Below are positions 7,889-17,541 of a DNA stretch of 64,000 nucleotides, piece after piece. Every line of letters begins with the position of its first letter. The first letter of the stretch is position 1. The stretch is from Mesorhizobium sp. LNHC252B00 (lineage in GTDB: Bacteria; Pseudomonadota; Alphaproteobacteria; Rhizobiales; Rhizobiaceae): NCBI RefSeq assembly GCF_000502955.1, contig NZ_AYWO01000025.1, positions 1 to 64,000 on the forward strand, written 5' to 3'. The position numbers and the translations under genes were made by a program. The notes beneath the pieces were generated by a model, which saw nothing but the letters and a program-made list of their open reading frames with translations, ran no database searches and was not told the origin of the DNA.

Positions 7889-9163
7889 TCAGTTTGCCTT
7901 TTGCGTCGGCGCGCGGGTGGCCCCGTCCTTCATCAGCCGGTCGATATGCATGCGGATATGAGCCGCTTCCGCCGCCGTGTTCGCCAGCGCAATCGCGCGG
8001 TCGAAGGCGACACGCGCCTCCTCGCCCCGGTCAAGCTGCATCAGAAGCCCACCCTTGAGCCCGAAGAAGTGGAAATAGCCGGACAGCCGTTCTTCCAGCG
8101 GCTCGATCATGGCGAGCGCCTCTGCCGGACCACGCACCTTCGAGACCGCGACGGCCCGGTTGAGCGTGATCACCGGCGACGGCTGCATCTGCTCGAGCAA
8201 ACGGTAGAGCAGATCGATCTCGTTCCAGTCGGTGTCCTCGGCCTTTTCGGCCCGAGCATGCAGGGCGGCAATGGCCGCCTGCACCTGATAGGGGCCGGGC
8301 TTGCGATGGCGCAGCGCCTTGTCGACCAGTGCCAGCCCCTCATCGATCATCTTGCGGCTCCACAGGCTGCGATCCTGATCCTCGAGCAGCACGATCTCGC
8401 CGTCTTCGTCGAAACGGGCCGGTGCGCGCGCATGCTGCAGAAGCAGCAGCGCCGTCAGCCCCATGATCTCCGGCTCGGTCTGGAACAGCCGCAGCAACAG
8501 CCGGGCCAGCCGGATCGCTTCTTCGCACAGCGGCGCACGGGCCGGCGCCTCGCCGCTGTTGGTCGAATAGCCTTCGTTGAAGATCAGGTAGACCATCGCG
8601 GCGACAGCGGCGAGCCGTTCGGACCGCTCGACTGCGCCTGGCGTCTCGAACGGCACGCCGGCGTCCGCAATACGCGCCTTGGCGCGGGTGATGCGCTGCT
8701 CCATGGCGCTTTCGCCAACCAGGAAGGCCCGCGCGATCTGCTTGACGGTGAGGCCCGAGACAATCCGCAGCGCCACCGCGATCTGCTGCGTTGCCGGCAG
8801 GTCGGGATGGCAGCAGATGAACAGCAGCCGCAATATGTCGTCGCGGTAATGCGCCCCGTCCAGCCGCTCGGCGATATCGCTTTCGGCGTCTTCCAGGTCC
8901 GAGATCTGGTCTTCCTCCGGCATCGGCGCCTGCTTGGCCCGCTTGCGCACCGCGTCGATGCCGCTGTTGCGGCCGACAAAGATCAGCCAGGCCGCCGGAT
9001 CACGCGGCGGGCCGTTCTGCGGCCAGTTCTTGATGGCCCTGAGACACGCGTCCTGGAAAGCTTCTTCCGCCGTATCGAGGTCGCGGAAATAACGCAGCAG
9101 CGCACCCATCGCCTGCGGACGGGCGGCGCTGATCGCGGAGCTGATCCAGGCAAGTTCGGTCAT
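7889..9163 (-). CDS. ECF-type RNA polymerase sigma factor, ECF42-like with C-terminal extension
   Basis: The 424-residue protein has an N-terminal sigma region 2 (ALLRYFRDLDTAEEAFQDAC, then NWPQNGPPRDPAAWL) and region 4 (VSGLTVKQIARAFLVGESA). A long helical C-terminal extension of about 230 residues follows, with the NEGYSTNSG and TLNRAVA signatures typical of the ECF42 group. There is no anti-sigma gene. In ECF42 the regulator is thought to be the C-terminal extension together with a DGPF/YCII partner. Here the partner gene lies directly upstream and overlaps by 4 nt. The start at 9163 is set by that ATGA overlap, although the frame is open to 9280. Confidence 0.88.
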   Translation of the reverse strand: MTELAWISSAISAARPQAMGALLRYFRDLDTAEEAFQDACLRAIKNWPQNGPPRDPAAWLIFVGRNSGIDAVRKRAKQAPMPEEDQISDLEDAESDIAERLDGAHYRDDILRLLFICCHPDLPATQQIAVALRIVSGLTVKQIARAFLVGESAMEQRITRAKARIADAGVPFETPGAVERSERLAAVAAMVYLIFNEGYSTNSGEAPARAPLCEEAIRLARLLLRLFQTEPEIMGLTALLLLQHARAPARFDEDGEIVLLEDQDRSLWSRKMIDEGLALVDKALRHRKPGPYQVQAAIAALHARAEKAEDTDWNEIDLLYRLLEQMQPSPVITLNRAVAVSKVRGPAEALAMIEPLEERLSGYFHFFGLKGGLLMQLDRGEEARVAFDRAIALANTAAEAAHIRMHIDRLMKDGATRAPTQKAN

Positions 9164-9534
9164 GCCGGGACCTTGTTGCGGTTGAAGACCGAGACCGGCC
9201 GGATCTCGTAAGAGCCGCCACTCGGATTGACCTCGGAAAGTTCGCGGGCGAATTCCACGGCCTCGTCGAGATCGGCGCATTCGAGCGTGTAGAAGCCGAG
9301 GAATTGTTCCTTGGTCTCGGCAAACGGACCGTCGATGACGACCACTTCGCCCTTGACCCTCCTCAGCGTAGTCGCGGCCGTGGTCGGCAAGAGCCTTGCG
9401 ACCGGCCCAAGCCTGCCAGCCTTGACATATTTGTCCTGGACGTCGCGGAGATTGGCCATGACCTCGTCGTCCTGTGCCTTGCTCCAGGAGCAGACGACAT
9501 CTTCGGAAGCATAGCAGAGGATTGCGTAGAGCAT
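9160..9534 (-). CDS. YCII/DGPF-domain protein, partner of the ECF sigma factor
   Basis: This 124-residue YCII-related (DGPF) protein has the defining VVIDGPFAETKEQFLGFY motif at about residues 65-82 and the C-terminal EIRPVSVFN strand. It starts MLYAILCYASED, as the family usually does. DGPF proteins are small ferredoxin-like-fold proteins found beside ECF41/ECF42 sigma genes, often as their targets. The stop overlaps the sigma-factor start (ATGA), so the two are probably translationally coupled and co-regulated. The signal is unknown. Confidence 0.88.
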   Translation of the reverse strand: MLYAILCYASEDVVCSWSKAQDDEVMANLRDVQDKYVKAGRLGPVARLLPTTAATTLRRVKGEVVVIDGPFAETKEQFLGFYTLECADLDEAVEFARELSEVNPSGGSYEIRPVSVFNRNKVPA

Positions 9535-10850: not shown

Positions 10851-11735
10851 TCAGGCCTTTTCGAGCACGACCGGAATGACGTCGACAGCTTGCTCGCCGA
10901 CCTGTCCCCCCGTGGTCTTGAGAACGCCCACGATCGGTGCCACGTCCGAGTAGTCGCGGCCGTAACCGACGGTGATGTGGTCGTTGCTGGCCCGCATGCC
11001 GTTGGTCGGATCGAATTCCTGCCAGCCGGCGTCGCGCCCGCACCAGACCTTGACCCAGGCATGCATGGCATCGGCGCCTTCAAGCCGGGGTTTGCCCTTC
11101 GGCGGGATGGTGCGCAGGAAGCCGCTGACGTAGCCGGCCGGAATACCGAGCCCGCGCAGGCCGGCGATCATGATATGCGAAAAATCCTGGCATACACCGC
11201 GCTTCAACTTGAAGGCGTCGCTGGCCCTGGTTCGCACCGTGGTCGCCTCGCCGTCATAGGTGAAATCGCGATGGATGCGATTGCACAGGTTCATCGCCGT
11301 GCCGGCGGCAGAGCCGGCGACACTATCCCGAGCGTAGCCGGTGATCGCACCATCGATGCCGGCATGAATGCTGGCCGCCAGGAAATGGTGGGGTGTATCA
11401 GGCGCCAGCGACCGCACGGCGGCAAGCTCCTGCCTGAGCCTGCCGATATCGGGCGACACGTCGAGGCCGGGCTCGGGCCGCGACACCGATACGCGTGCGC
11501 TCATCCTTATGTCGAGTGTGTCATGCGCGTCGCGAAAGGCGATCGACGTGACGTTGTTGCCGAAGAAATCGGGAAAATCCGAACGCTCATTGGGCGCCGG
11601 CGCAAAGGACAAGGATGCCGCGATGACGCGCTGAACGTCCGATATCGTCGACGGCAGCACGCGGATCTGATGGCGGCCGCCACCGGCCGCCGCGGCATAG
11701 TCGTAATGGAGATGAAGCCTGATGTCGTAAAGCAT
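10851..11735 (-). CDS. transglutaminase-like protein (third gene of cassette)
   Basis: This 294-residue transglutaminase/protease-fold protein has catalytic Cys182 in GVCQDFSH, His225 in AMHAWV and Asp242 in EFDPTNG. The N-terminal 120 residues form the beta-rich transglutaminase N domain. No signal peptide is seen, so it is probably cytoplasmic. It ends a three-gene minus-strand operon (DUF2126 transglutaminase, ATP-grasp/alpha-E fusion, this gene) with only 28 bp to the gene before it. Comparative work on such clusters proposes peptide synthesis or modification, with the transglutaminase acting as a peptidase or transferase. The substrate is unknown. Confidence 0.9.
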   Translation of the reverse strand: MLYDIRLHLHYDYAAAAGGGRHQIRVLPSTISDVQRVIAASLSFAPAPNERSDFPDFFGNNVTSIAFRDAHDTLDIRMSARVSVSRPEPGLDVSPDIGRLRQELAAVRSLAPDTPHHFLAASIHAGIDGAITGYARDSVAGSAAGTAMNLCNRIHRDFTYDGEATTVRTRASDAFKLKRGVCQDFSHIMIAGLRGLGIPAGYVSGFLRTIPPKGKPRLEGADAMHAWVKVWCGRDAGWQEFDPTNGMRASNDHITVGYGRDYSDVAPIVGVLKTTGGQVGEQAVDVIPVVLEKA

Positions 11736-11763
11736 GCTCTACTTTTCTCGTTTCGGAACCGGC

Positions 11764-14175
11764 TTAGCCGAAATAGGCTTTGGCGAGGCTGTTGTAGAGG
11801 CCGCCGATTTCGTGGGCGAGATCATCCAGCGCCTTCGCTGTCATGTCCGAAGGCTCCTTGATGGCGATGGCAGTGTTGAGCTGCAGGATTTCCTTCGCCG
11901 CCGGCGACATGTGCCCTTGCCCGCCGAGCGATGGCAACAGGCCGATCTCGGCCTTCAGCCTTTCGAGCTGGAACAGGATGGAGCGAGGATTGAGCGGGTC
12001 GAGCGCCAAGAGATCGATCACCGTGCGCCGGCCGGCCTGCACCGGATATTGCCGACGGTGGGTCATCACGCTGTCGCCGATCTCCAGCATCATGTCGAGC
12101 GCGCCGTCCGGCGCCTTGGCGCTGGTCAGCCGGGATAGCGTACGGGCGATCTGGATGCCGCGCTCCAGCCTCCGGCCGATCTCGAGGAAGCGCCAGCCGG
12201 CGAAGCGGTACATGTTCTCGTGCAGCAGGCCGGAAAAGCCGGCGAGCTTGCGCAGGATGACCGTCATCGCCCGGGTCGCGTCGTCGCCTGGCGCCACCGT
12301 CGTTGCGAACTGATGGATGGTCTTCGACAGGTCCTTCAGCGCCAGCCAGCCATCGGGCGAGAAGCGGTCGCGAATCTGACCGGCGCTGTAGACCGCGCTA
12401 TCCAGCGTACCGATCAGCCCTGACGGGATCGCCGTCTCGATGTCGATGCCGAAAGGTTGGAGATACTCCCTGATGTCGGCGAGCAGCGGCATATCCGGGT
12501 CGGAGGTTTCGGCCAGCCGCACATGATAGGCGCGCAGGATGCGCACCGTGTCTTCCGAGCGTTCGATGTAACGTCCGAGCCAGGTCAGGTTCTCCGCCGC
12601 GCGGCTGGGCAGGCTACCGGGCTTGGTGCGCGTGAAACTGTCGCCCTCTTGCGGCAGCAGCGTCTCGCGCTCCACCGGTCGCTCGCTGACCACCCAGACG
12701 TCCGCCGCCTGGCCTCCGCGCTGCATCGCGATCGCCGTCGGGTCGAGCGACAGGCCGACGCGGGCAAAGCCACCCGGCATCACCGTCCAGCCTGCGGGCG
12801 TTCGCGCCAGATAGACCCGCAGGCTCGCCGGCCGGGGCTCCAGCCAGCCCCCGACATAGACGGGCGTCGTCGAAAGCGTCACCGCTTCCTGGCCGACGAA
12901 GTTGCCGCCATCGCGCTCGATGCGCGACACCAGCTCCGCCCGCTCCCCGGCCGACAGCGCCGAGCCGAGCTTCGTCTGATCGTCATCCTCGAAGGCAAGT
13001 CTCGTCGACAGCGCCGGGCCAATGACCAGGCGATCGATATTGGCCAGCACATGCGCGCGTTCGGTTGCTTGCCCGCACCACCATGTCGCGACACTCGGCA
13101 GCAGCAATTCCTCGCCCCGCAACGCGCGTGAAATCTCGGGCAGGAAGGCAAGCAGCGCCCGTGTCTCCATCAGGCCGGAGCCCAGCGCATTGACCGTCGC
13201 AACCGCACCCTGGCGGATCGCCTCGACCAGGCCCGGCGTGCCGATCTGCGAGTCCGCGCGCAGTTCGAGCGGATCGGCGAAAGCCGCATCGAGCCGCCGC
13301 CACAACACGCTGATCGGCATCAGCCCGGAAACCGTGCGCACCATCAGCCTGCCGCCGGAAACGGTCAAGTCCTCGCCTTCGAGCAGCATGATGCCGAGAT
13401 AGCGGGCGATATAGGCGTGTTCGTAGTAGGTTTCGTTGAGCGGCCCAGGCGTCAGGATGGCGACGCGGCCGTCGGTCTCCTTGGCCATGCCGATCAGTGC
13501 ATCGCGAAAGCGGCGAAAGAAGCCGGCAAGGCGGTGCACATGCATCTCGCCATAGATGTCGGACAGCGCGCGCGTGGTGGCGACACGGTTCTCCAGCGCA
13601 AAGCCGGCGCCGGACGGCGCCTGGGTGCGGTCGCCGAGCACCCACCACTGGCCGTCAGGCCCACGGCCCAGTTCGAAGGCACAGAAATGCAGGAAATGAC
13701 CGCCGGCTGGCTTGGTGCCGACGACAGGCCGCAAATATTCGGGGCTGGCGGCGATCAATCCCGCCGGCAGGATGCCTTTCTCGACCAGCCGGTTCGGCCC
13801 GTAAATATCGGCGATTGTTTCCTCGAACAGTTCGGCGCGCTGCACGAGGCCGGCGCTGATCGCCGCCCACTCGCTCTCTTCGATAAGAACCGGGACGTGC
13901 GCCAGCGGCCATTCGCGCTCATTGGCGCCAGCCTTGTCGTAGACGCGGTAATAAACACCGGCATCGCGCAGATACTGGTCGGCGCGGGCAAAGCGCTGGC
14001 CAAGCTTTTCAGGCCCCAGCTCGTCGAGCGCCTCGATGAAGTGTTTCCAGGTCGGACGGGGGTTTCCTGACGCATCGACCATCTCGTCGACGACGCCGTC
14101 GATCGGCTGGTAGTGCTCCAGCAGGCTGTGGATCTGCGGCTTGCCGCGTACTCGTCTGTGATTCCCCTTCGCCAT
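11764..14175 (-). CDS. circularly permuted type-2 ATP-grasp protein fused to an alpha-E domain
   Basis: This 803-residue protein has a circularly permuted ATP-grasp domain in its first 480 or so residues (YRVYDKAG, then HVPVLIEESEWAAI, GILPAGLIAASPEYLRPV, LGDRTQAPSGAGFALENRVA, LTPGPLNETYYEHAYIARYLG). The last 310 residues are an all-helical alpha-E domain (LTWLGRYIERSEDTVRILRAY, then FLEIGRRLERGIQIA). ATP-grasp members of this type are predicted amide-bond (peptide) ligases. Many genomes carry the two domains as separate neighbouring genes, and here they are fused. It lies between two transglutaminase-like genes (6 bp and 28 bp gaps), which strongly suggests one pathway. Confidence 0.9.
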   Translation of the reverse strand: MAKGNHRRVRGKPQIHSLLEHYQPIDGVVDEMVDASGNPRPTWKHFIEALDELGPEKLGQRFARADQYLRDAGVYYRVYDKAGANEREWPLAHVPVLIEESEWAAISAGLVQRAELFEETIADIYGPNRLVEKGILPAGLIAASPEYLRPVVGTKPAGGHFLHFCAFELGRGPDGQWWVLGDRTQAPSGAGFALENRVATTRALSDIYGEMHVHRLAGFFRRFRDALIGMAKETDGRVAILTPGPLNETYYEHAYIARYLGIMLLEGEDLTVSGGRLMVRTVSGLMPISVLWRRLDAAFADPLELRADSQIGTPGLVEAIRQGAVATVNALGSGLMETRALLAFLPEISRALRGEELLLPSVATWWCGQATERAHVLANIDRLVIGPALSTRLAFEDDDQTKLGSALSAGERAELVSRIERDGGNFVGQEAVTLSTTPVYVGGWLEPRPASLRVYLARTPAGWTVMPGGFARVGLSLDPTAIAMQRGGQAADVWVVSERPVERETLLPQEGDSFTRTKPGSLPSRAAENLTWLGRYIERSEDTVRILRAYHVRLAETSDPDMPLLADIREYLQPFGIDIETAIPSGLIGTLDSAVYSAGQIRDRFSPDGWLALKDLSKTIHQFATTVAPGDDATRAMTVILRKLAGFSGLLHENMYRFAGWRFLEIGRRLERGIQIARTLSRLTSAKAPDGALDMMLEIGDSVMTHRRQYPVQAGRRTVIDLLALDPLNPRSILFQLERLKAEIGLLPSLGGQGHMSPAAKEILQLNTAIAIKEPSDMTAKALDDLAHEIGGLYNSLAKAYFG

Positions 14176-14181
14176 CGCTGA

Positions 14182-17100
14182 TCAGAGTCTTGCCGGCCGC
14201 CGAAGGTCAAGGGTCATCGGGAAATCTTCCGCCGGTTGTTCTTCACGCAGCACATAGGCGGACGGCGTATGCCCGCGCGGTTCGAAGCGGGCGAGGCGCC
14301 GTGCCTCCGCCTCATTGCCGTTGACCGGGAATGTATCGTAGTTGCGCCCGCCCGGATGCGCGACATGGTAGACGCAGCCGCCGACCGCCCGGCCCGACCA
14401 GCGGTCATAGATATCGAACACCAGCGGCGTGTTGACCGGCAGTGCCGGATGCAGACCGGAGGCCGGTTGCCAGGCCTTGAAACGGACGCCCGCCACGGCG
14501 ACTTCGCGATTGTCCGTGACCTTCATGGGCACGATGCGGCCGTTGCAAACGATCGCGTGCCGCTCCGGATTGAGACCTTCGGTCTTGACCTGCAGCCGCT
14601 CGACCGAGGAATCGACGAAGCGCACGGTACCACCGATCGCTCCTTGCTCGCCCATGACATGCCACGGCTCCAGCGCCTGGCGCAGTTCCAGCTTGACGCC
14701 CGCGTGCTGAACCTCGCCGCAGAACGGGAAGCGGAACTCGAGCTGGGCGTCGAACCATTCGGGCCTGAACTCGAAACCGTTGAGCTTGAGGTCGTCAAGC
14801 ACGTCGAGAAAATCGGCCCAGACATAGTGCGGCAGCATGAAGCGGTCATGCAGCGAGGTACCCCAGCGCACGAAGCGGCCGTCGAGCGGGCTCTTCCAAG
14901 CGCGGGCAATAATCGCCCTGACAAGCAGTTGCTGCGCCAGGCTCATGCGCGCATTGGGCGGCATCTCGAAACCGCGGAACTCGACAAGACCCAGCCGGCC
15001 GGTTGGACCGTCCGGCGAGAACAGCTTGTCGATGCAAATTTCCGAGCGATGCGTATTCCCGGTGACGTCGGTCAACAAATTGCGGAACAGCCGGTCGACC
15101 AGCCACGGCAAGGGTGCCGCGCCCTGATCTGGATGCGGCACCTGCGCCATCGCGATTTCGAGTTCGTAGAGCGAGTCGTGACGCGCCTCGTCGAAGCGCG
15201 GCGCCTGGCTGGTCGGGCCGATGAACAGGCCCGAGAAAAGATAGGACAGCGACGGACGCCGCTGCCATTGCAGCACCAGGCTCTTCAACAGGTCTGGCCG
15301 GCGCAGGAATGGGCTGTCGTTGGGCGTCGCGCCGCCGACGACGACATGGTTGCCGCCGCCGGTGCCGGTATGACGGCCGTCGATCATGAATTTATCGGCG
15401 CCAAGCCGTGTCTGCCGCGCTTCCTCGTAGATCGCCGTCGTCGTCGCCACGCAATCCTGCCAGTTCGAAGCCGGATGGATGTTGACCTCGATGACGCCGG
15501 GATCGGGCGCCACGCGGATGACGTTGAGGCGCGGATCATGCGGCGGGCCATAGCCCTCGATATGCACGGGAAGGCCGATCGCCTTTGCCGCGTTCTCGGC
15601 CGCTGCGACCAGCTCCAGATAATCTTCCAGCGCCTCGACCGGCGGCATGAACACGCAAAGCCGTCCGTCGCGCGGTTCGACCGAAAGTGCGGTACGCACC
15701 GCGCCGCCGATCTCGGTGATCTCCTGTTCGACCCGATCCTGCTGGCCGGTCGCCGCCGTGAAGGACGCCGCCTGCTGGCGGCGCGCCATCTCGTCGGCGC
15801 CTTCCTGTTCGGCCGGAGCCGTACCGGGCAATATGGCTTCGCGCGCGGGCAGCGGTCCGCGCGGCAGCGACGGATCGACCGGCACGATGTAAGGGAACTG
15901 CGCCGGCGGCACATAGGGCAACGTGCCGAGCGGCAAGCGGTAGCCGACGGGTGAATCGCCCGGCACCAGGAACAGCCGGCCGCGCCGCGTATGCCATCTT
16001 TCCGAGCGCCAGCGCGGCCCTGACGCCTGGCCGTTCCAGCGCTGCACGGGCAACACGTAACCCGACGGCTTGGTCAGCCCGCGTTCGAACACTTTCGCCA
16101 TGCGGCTGCGCTCTTCCGGGTCCTCAAGCTTGGAGTTGGACGGATCGACATTGTCCGGCAGCTTGCCCTCCTTGAGCAGCCACTCGGCCGGATCCTCATA
16201 GGCTTCGCTGACCATGCTTTTGTCGATGCCGAGTTCGCCGGCAATCGCGGTCAGTAGGCTTTCGGCCTGTTTCGGGCCGACATCGGCCTCGCTCTTTTCG
16301 CGCGCGATCAGCGACGGGTCGCTCCACACCGGCTCGCCATCGGCCCGCCAGTAGAGCGAAAAGGTCCAGCGCGGCAGGCTTTCGCCCGGATACCATTTGC
16401 CCTGGCCATAATGGAGGAAACCACCCGGCGCGAAACGCTCACGCAGTTTTCGGATCAGTTCATCGGCCCTTTCACGCTTGGTCGGGCCGACGGCCGCGGT
16501 GTTCCACTCGGCCGACTCGAAATCGTCGATCGACACGAAGGTCGGCTCGCCGCCCATCGTCAGCCGCACGTCCCCGGCCGACAGTGCAGCATCGACCTTG
16601 TTGCCGAGCGCATCGAGCGCCTGCCAGCTTTCATCCGAGAACGGTTTGGTGATGCGCGGATGCTCGGCGATGCGGTCTACCCGCATGTCGAAGCCGAATT
16701 CGACATTGGCGAAGCTCGCCATGCCGGAAATCGGGGCAGCGTTGTGGAAATGCGGCGTCGCCGCCAGCGGCACATGGCTCTCGCCGGTGAGCAGGCCGGA
16801 GGTCGGATCGAAGCCGATCCAGCCGGCGCCGGGAAGATAAACCTCGCACCAGGCATGCAGATCGGTGAAGTCGACGGCGGTTCCGGCTGGCCCGTCGAGC
16901 GCCACCAGATCCGGCTTCAACTGGATCAGGTAGCCGGAAACGAAGCGCGCGGCGATGCCGAGATTGCGCAGGATCTGCACCAGCAGCCAGCTCGAATCCC
17001 GGCACGAACCCTTTTTCGCCGCAAGCGTCTCCTCCGGCGAGAACACACCGGTCTCCATGCGAACGATATAGGCAATTTCGCGCTGCAGCCGCGCATTGAG

Positions 17101-17541
17101 ATCGACGAGGAAATTGACAGTATTCGGCGCGCTGCGGTCGATTGTCCCGAGCAAGGCCGAAAGCAACGGGCCGGCCGGCTCCGGCGTCCGGTAGATGGCG
17201 AGATCGTCGCGTATCTCTTCCGGGTACTCGAACGGGAAGGTCTCGGCCGATGGTTCGACGAAGAAGTCGAACGGATTGTAGACCGTCATGTCGGCGAGGA
17301 GGTCGACCTCGATCTTCAGTTCGGTGACCGGCTCCGGGAAGACGAAGCGGGCAAGGAAGTTGCCGTAGGGATCCTGCTGCAGATTGACGAAGTGGTTCGC
17401 CGGCTCGACTTTGAGCGAATGGCTGAGCACCTTGGTGCGGGAATGCGGCGCCGGCTGCAGTCTGATGATCTGGGGACCGAGAACCACCGGCCGGTCGTAT
17501 TTGTAATGGGTCAGGTGATAGACAGCTGCCAGAATTGCCAT
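14182..17541 (-). CDS. large transglutaminase / DUF2126 protein (first gene of cassette)
   Basis: The protein has 1119 residues. The N-terminal third is a transglutaminase module with beta-rich start, Cys180 in [10 protein letters not shown], His229 in DLHAWCE and Asp245 in GFDPTSGL. The rest is the large DUF2126 region ([14 protein letters not shown] around 325, [37 protein letters not shown]), ending in RRPARL. The [11 protein letters not shown]-type segment recalls nucleotide- or metal-binding loops of amidoligases. No secretion signal is present. It leads the operon with the ATP-grasp/alpha-E gene 6 bp downstream. It probably acts on peptides in the cytoplasm; the substrate is unknown. 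Confidence 0.92.

Follow-up and report, generated by a model that had tools for sequence, protein, structure and literature searches.

A predicted degenerate ATP-grasp/alpha-E fusion in a transglutaminase-DUF2126 cassette of Mesorhizobium, a candidate module of a two-part amide-forming and amide-cleaving system

This analysis deals with a cassette of three genes on the minus strand of a 64,000-nucleotide stretch of DNA from Mesorhizobium sp. LNHC252B00 (assembly GCF_000502955.1, contig NZ_AYWO01000025.1, positions 1 to 64,000), in the following called the window. The genes are transcribed from position 17541 down to 10851 (Table 1) and encode, in this order, a transglutaminase-like (TG) domain fused to DUF2126 (P0003; Pfam matches Bact_transglu_N, Transglut_core and DUF2126, the last with 1342 bits), a circularly permuted (CP) ATP-grasp domain fused to an alpha-E domain (P0002; CP_ATPgrasp_2 with 461 bits, Alpha-E with 187 bits) and a second TG-like protein (P0001; Bact_transglu_N and Transglut_core). 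P0003 is most closely related to Mesorhizobium proteins, with identities of up to 97%, and the predicted location of the cassette proteins is probably the cytoplasm. A preliminary description, made from the letters of the window, had placed the three genes exactly at these open reading frames (ORFs) with gaps of 6 nt (14176-14181) and 28 nt (11736-11763), and Pfam bears out the CP-ATP-grasp/alpha-E fusion that it saw between two TG-like proteins. Also the Cys/His/Asp triads it assigned to both TG domains are correctly numbered and near-invariant among aligned relatives: that of P0003 is kept in 77/77 sequences, and in P0001 Cys182 and His225 are present in 104/104 and Asp242 in 103/104 (one gap). 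By Pfam no Anbu gene is found among the three cassette genes. Rfam and NCBIfam searches of the cassette gave no match, and a scan for promoters and terminators gave no excess over chance.

Table 1. Positions in the window of the cassette genes and of their domains and motifs.
Feature	Position	Strand	Basis
TG-DUF2126 protein P0003, 1119 amino acids, first gene	14182..17541	-	ORF, Pfam
CP-ATP-grasp/alpha-E fusion P0002, 803 amino acids, second gene	11764..14175	-	ORF, Pfam, structure model
TG-like protein P0001, 294 amino acids, third gene, Cys182/His225/Asp242	10851..11735	-	ORF, Pfam, alignment
TG-like part of P0003, residues ~1-290, Cys180/His229/Asp245	16672..17541	-	Pfam, alignment
DUF2126 part of P0003, residues ~300-1115, putative glutamine-synthetase-fold amidoligase	14197..16644	-	Pfam, model
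Predicted degenerate ATP-grasp part of P0002, residues ~20-497	12685..14118	-	model, alignment
P0002 residues 181-183, G-D-R (E-D-N in stand-alone relatives)	13627..13635	-	alignment
P0002 residues 384-392 (lid lysine and Gly-rich loop in stand-alone relatives; position 386 is G)	13000..13026	-	
Alpha-E part of P0002, residues ~520-803, ER motifs kept	11767..12618	-	Pfam, alignment

The central observation concerns the ATP-grasp part of P0002. At the five catalytic positions D, E, N, K and K this protein carries E168, G181, R183, R339 and G386. In a first set of sequences all five positions are intact in 24/24 stand-alone ATP-grasps and in 0/100 fused ones, and in a second set of 60 further ATP-grasp regions in 47/47 stand-alone and 0/13 fused ones, which gives 71/71 for the stand-alone class. 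The first fused set consists of 99 proteins and P0002, the first stand-alone set of 26 proteins minus two short rows (L053 and L078) that are truncated fusion proteins and were left out of the intact-class count; the fused protein of genome G024 occurs in both fused sets, and the survey genomes may repeat species of the fetched loci. The stand-alone class is marked by LEDN, by the lysine of DDK and by a lid lysine with a Gly-rich loop behind it. In contrast, the fused class keeps the E in 1/100, the N in 0/100, the first K in 1/100 and the lid K in 5/100 proteins, never jointly, and alignments of P0002 both with the structure 3n6x and with a stand-alone ATP-grasp encoded on contig C8 of the same genome show that it has lost the Gly-rich loop. 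In Caballeronia the split between fused and stand-alone proteins is seen inside one cluster, and the fused ATP-grasp of Azospirillum is likewise not intact. Phylogenetically the fused ATP-grasps form a single clade (support 0.80) on a long branch. When compared with four other loci of the genus, the ratio of nonsynonymous to synonymous substitution rates (dN/dS) is 0.046-0.092 for P0003 and 0.084-0.120 for P0001, and within P0002 it amounts to 0.090-0.151 in the ATP-grasp domain and 0.067-0.115 in alpha-E; the degenerate ATP-grasp domain is maintained by purifying selection. The fused class still keeps R453 (100/100), R293 (99/100), R472 (98/100) and D182 (98/100), and in view of these residues it is a reasonable reading that the domain may bind a ligand without catalysis.

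The nearest solved structure to the P0002 model is Mfla_0391 (3n6x, a putative glutathionylspermidine synthase; Z 39.5, 30% identity over 443 residues), which differs from P0002 in possessing the intact-class LEDN motif. The CP-ATP-grasp fold is shared with GspS, the glutathionylspermidine synthetase/amidase, and with the peptide-spermidine ligases YgiC and YjfC (Z 18-22 for the P0002 model), from all of which the ATP-grasp of the window differs by the absence of catalytic residues. In a register obtained by hhalign with 23 GSP_synth sequences the positions D, E, N, K and K stand opposite D318, E330, N332, K498 and K533, which E. coli GspS carries at those very numbers and which we take to be its catalytic residues; G181, R183, R339 and G386 are the P0002 equivalents of the last four. 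The preliminary description had regarded this ATP-grasp as a ligating enzyme and had named a loss of its catalytic residues as a finding that would speak against its proposal. Such a loss is what was found at the sequence level, in the low-probability hhalign register and in the comparison with 3n6x, and with the catalytic positions replaced and an intact ATP-grasp encoded on another contig the role of ligase is not supported for this protein. Judged from its residues, the ATP-grasp of the cassette would be a conserved degenerate paralogue and, as far as seen, an undescribed feature: there is no mention of an inactive ATP-grasp in the literature searched, and Iyer and colleagues (2009), a work outside that literature, may already note the degeneracy. 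These authors reportedly proposed peptide systems built from amidoligases and transglutaminases. The assignment of the cassette to such an amide-forming and amide-cleaving set stands as regards gene content, which is that of an ordinary member of a known, widespread kind, and fails as regards the fused ATP-grasp as its ligase. That such systems have no established substrate agrees with the literature searched, where neither product nor substrate is assigned.

The intact ATP-grasp just mentioned (512 amino acids, all catalytic positions present) belongs to an operon on contig C8 that further contains an alpha-E gene, a TG-like gene and a gene with a Pfam match to Proteasome (34.8 bits), which from its operon context we take to be Anbu. 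P0002 and the C8 ATP-grasp share 30% identity over 473 columns and P0001 is 30% identical to the C8 TG-like protein; by sequence the window cassette and the C8 operon are paralogous modules. The cassette thus resembles an Anbu operon in its homologous ATP-grasp and TG-like proteins, its alpha-E domain and its compact gene order, but differs by the presence of TG-DUF2126, the lack of Anbu, the fusion of ATP-grasp with alpha-E and the predicted degeneracy of this ATP-grasp. For an Anbu-operon ATP-grasp from Y. bercovieri the release of phosphate from ATP was reported (PMC6376114). Between the ATP-grasp and alpha-E genes on C8 (L086:10142-10640) lies a 23S_rRNA_IVP-type gene (PF05635, 124.6 bits) with inverted repeats of AGCGAATAG units at its borders. 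The spacing from ATP-grasp to Anbu is 320-475 bases shorter in five other genomes of the genus, which suggests that this gene is a recently inserted small element.

Co-occurrence was surveyed in 200 Pseudomonadota genomes, the source genome included. DUF2126 was detected in 63, CP_ATPgrasp_2 in 116 and Anbu (matches with E 1e-10 or better) in 68 of them. A CP-ATP-grasp is present in 63/63 DUF2126 genomes vs 53/137 others (Fisher p 5e-20, a significance inflated by kinship), and at least two are found in 59/63 vs 5/137. In each of the 63 DUF2126 genomes the sequence of an intact stand-alone ATP-grasp was verified, 43 times in the second sequence set, 19 times among the diverse loci of the first and once as the C8 copy. 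Where only one CP-ATP-grasp occurs (G036, G049, G064 and G097, of which G049 and G097 consist of many contigs) it is of the intact stand-alone kind in 4/4 cases; genome G076 possesses two, both of them short ORFs. Anbu goes with DUF2126 in the raw counts (35/63 vs 33/137, p 1.6e-5), and a match to it is missing in 28/63 DUF2126 genomes. As an obligate partner of DUF2126 Anbu was rejected, since the association vanishes among genomes with a CP-ATP-grasp (35/63 vs 32/53, p 0.71). This pattern points to the intact ATP-grasp as the hub of a larger system to which Anbu and DUF2126 are separate additions, and the cassette goes with an intact ATP-grasp encoded elsewhere in the genome.

The gene order itself is no chance arrangement, since the cassette order of all three genes recurs in 72 of the 80 loci that were retrieved with P0003 (the 80 best among 594 confirmed). 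The module occurs in 63/200 genomes, about a third of the sampled Pseudomonadota. Among the eight exceptions, four contigs (L047, L053, L071, L078) break off within the ATP-grasp gene or directly behind it and two more (L076 and L085) stop 0.2 and 0.5 kb beyond the DUF2126 gene; L045 and L048 are truly devoid of partner genes in their flanks. In 27 DUF2126 loci chosen from the 63 genomes (stretches of up to 20 kb) a stand-alone ATP-grasp occurs 20 times, a fused one 23 times and Anbu 8 times, and all system components lie within 20 kb in L134 and L138. A neighbour clustering of 30 diverse loci, which loosely joins both kinds of ATP-grasp and of TG genes, shows no widely recurring genes beyond those of the system itself among the matches listed, no search aimed at a Pup-like small protein having been made. 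In Pseudochelatococcus (L076:6529-13363) a short ATP-grasp, alpha-E, Anbu and TG-DUF2126 stand in one row, with TG-DUF2126 in the usual place of the TG gene beside Anbu and the contig end 0.2 kb further on. Within the alpha-E part of P0002 the ER motifs are kept (R539, E671 and R672 in 42/42, E538 in 40/42 sequences), and its structural matches (Foldseek, VIA) are unrelated helical bundles with Z below 10. We take Rv2569c of the literature to be a member of the P0001-like family. Published work describes Rv2569c as a serine protease that is inhibited neither by E-64 nor by N-ethylmaleimide (PMC11081392), at odds with the cysteine that is invariant in P0001.

Within the cassette the likelier ligase is the DUF2126 domain and not the fused ATP-grasp, because Pfam describes DUF2126 as 'Putative amidoligase enzyme' and the model of P0003 bears a weak resemblance to glutamine synthetases, which we regard as moderate support. 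For the DUF2126 part of the model, the alignments with glutamine synthetases span 205-286 residues (Z 8.2-9.2) and the one with YbdK spans 244 residues (Z 8.3). Residues E332, E662, E685, H732, R832, E834, E854, R856 and E859 are invariant in 77/77 P0003 sequences, and E332, E662, E685, H732, E854 and R856 are putative metal ligands, assigned by motif only. DUF2126 is not mentioned in the literature searched. Rv2566 has been placed in the carboxylate-amine ligase superfamily (PMC2588565), and proteins of this type, which combine TG and carboxylate-amine ligase domains, resemble the first gene of the cassette in domain content; the difference is that the cassette adds the predicted degenerate ATP-grasp partner, which is unmentioned in the available part of that paper.

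On this basis we propose, with about even confidence for and against, that in a two-part amide-forming and amide-cleaving system, working with a non-catalytic fusion and the intact C8 ATP-grasp, the cassette constitutes the DUF2126 module. TG-DUF2126 would both make and break amides: its DUF2126 domain, which probably has the glutamine synthetase fold, would join a carboxylate to an amine using ATP, and its papain-like TG domain would hydrolyse or transfer the same kind of amide. The ATP-grasp/alpha-E fusion would be a conserved non-catalytic paralogue of the intact ligase that retains the fold and several conserved arginines, not the residues for Mg and the ATP phosphates, and would serve as a substrate-binding or regulatory subunit. 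P0001 would be a second thiol hydrolase or transferase, and the ATP-grasp ligation could be carried out by the paralogue of the C8 operon with its ATP-grasp, alpha-E, TG and Anbu components. Bond-making thus probably falls to the DUF2126 neighbour domain and to the intact ligase elsewhere in the genome; all activities, the physical interaction and the kind of substrate (peptides or small amines) we infer. A parallel is provided by GspS, where a papain-like amidase is fused to a ligase as the TG domain is to DUF2126; the difference is that the ligase fused to the thiol domain is in the cassette probably of glutamine synthetase fold. A relay of two ligases, in which a conjugate made or primed by the intact ATP-grasp is held by the pseudo-ligase/alpha-E protein, extended by DUF2126 and dismantled by the TG domain and its partner thiol hydrolase, is a tentative elaboration that we consider distinctly less probable than the general scheme.

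Several observations weigh against the proposal. The P0003 model has a mean pLDDT (predicted local distance difference test) of 67, its Z of 8-9 lies within the range common for models without clear match (7-8 per tool), the best glutamine synthetase found by Foldseek has an E-value of 0.036, profile comparison of DUF2126 with GCS2 and GlnA by hhalign was not significant, and T334 stands where glutamine synthetases have one of their paired glutamates. The activities of DUF2126 and of the fusion are predictions from sequence and models. Mapping of the fused ATP-grasp on GspS rests on an hhalign register with a probability below 1%; this register is independently supported, since the alignment with 3n6x and the E-x-N mutants of the ATP-grasp Cp1B agree with it. 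In Cp1B, the structure of which matches the P0002 model with Z 20.2, alanine at R139, D141, E163 or N165 abolished or significantly attenuated activity (PMC12568646). Furthermore, the intact class itself (24/24) has G in place of the first Arg of the R-x-D motif, which means that the active site differs in detail from that of GspS. Genomes G036, G064 and G076 have DUF2126 with no fused ATP-grasp among the matches listed (its absence was judged from these and from match counts), and G194 and G197 (L129 and L130, same genus) have the predicted degenerate fusion and TG, no match to DUF2126 or Anbu, and retain an intact ATP-grasp. From these patterns it follows that neither the fusion nor DUF2126 needs the other. 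Finally, Anbu and DUF2126 are independent once the ATP-grasp is present.

Published data connect related operons with nitrogen starvation. The operon PP_2685-2688 of P. putida is induced by nitrogen limitation (PMC7801951, PMC8050072), and B. cenocepacia possesses an NtrC-dependent cluster that includes DUF404/407, DUF403 and a pair of transglutaminase-like genes, one member of the pair being large (PMC5491218); this member would correspond to TG-DUF2126. In a strict scan (score of at least 13 of 15) sigma54-like sites were found upstream of the core operon in 16/40 regions vs 1.07 expected (5/20 in the order of the window, 11/20 elsewhere and 0/7 in the genus) and upstream of DUF2126 in 5/27 diverse loci vs 0.40 expected; in Pseudochelatococcus (L076) a 14-of-15 site precedes TG-DUF2126. 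Such promoters in relatives are fitting with the published induction. In the wider lineage of the window the same scan detected sites in 2/80 loci vs 2.67 expected and none upstream of 17541, where the best site scores 12 of 15 and falls within the upstream gene. A looser scan (score of at least 12 within 300 nt) matched 22.5% of 80 loci vs 10.0% of 1737 control upstreams; the Mesorhizobium matches, however, lie at about -262 to -281, a position that in the window belongs to the upstream gene. Control of the window cassette by sigma54/NtrC was therefore rejected for its lineage: with no excess in the strict scan nitrogen control is a property of relatives that cannot be assumed here. The C8 ATP-grasp is preceded by a 12-of-15 site, which was not seen in any of the seven other genomes of the genus.

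These promoters also speak for a system of peptide catabolism for nitrogen scavenging, in which the TG-like proteins and Anbu are peptidases or amidases and the role of the ligase-like proteins is confined to tagging or presenting substrates for breakdown when nitrogen is limiting. We consider it improbable: beside the expression under nitrogen limitation and NtrC in P. putida and B. cenocepacia and the excess of core-operon sites stand the missing signal in the lineage of the window, the 28 DUF2126 genomes with no Anbu match and the Anbu of Y. bercovieri, for which no peptidase activity was detected (PMC6376114). Equally improbable seems a cassette in which the fused ATP-grasp itself acts as the ligase through rearranged Mg and ATP ligands, with alpha-E and TG processing its product. 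The clear fold and family profile, the low dN/dS and the four residues kept in 98-100 of 100 fused proteins would be expected from an enzyme of this kind, but its E-x-N motif and lysines are almost completely lost, P0002 has no Gly-rich loop and every DUF2126 genome has an intact ATP-grasp at its disposal.

The ubiquity of the intact ATP-grasp agrees as well with a fusion that acts as a heteromeric pseudo-ligase partner and controls the C8 ATP-grasp, DUF2126 being concerned with a different substrate. The related glutathione synthetases are dimers, and G194 and G197 hold the fusion and the intact ATP-grasp with no DUF2126. In the lineage of the window, however, the fusion always adjoins TG and usually DUF2126, not the intact ATP-grasp, and no specific complexes were obtained when proteins of the Anbu operon of Y. 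bercovieri were co-expressed (PMC6376114); this explanation is unlikely, if somewhat less so than the previous two. Should the fusion prove to be the dead-ligase adaptor of the tentative two-ligase relay, the ATP-grasp superfamily would have a conserved pseudoenzyme at work in a very widespread system. The predicted degenerate ligase, the likelier DUF2126 catalyst and the ever-present intact ATP-grasp together shift the choice of proteins and mutants to be studied.

Some neighbouring genes deserve a short description. Genes resembling glgP and glgB (named by eye) lie near the cassette in 22/80 and 21/80 loci, which is probably clade synteny. In Caballeronia (L254:6814-7875) a Peptidase_Mx zinc metallopeptidase with a zinc ribbon is encoded between alpha-E and TG-DUF2126, and by eye a Peptidase_Mx-like protein occurs beside the cassette in L080, its cluster covering 2 diverse and 2 other loci. 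In the window itself an extracytoplasmic function (ECF)-type sigma factor with DUF6596 adjoins a YCII-domain protein (7889-9534) downstream of the cassette, past a topoisomerase IB gene.

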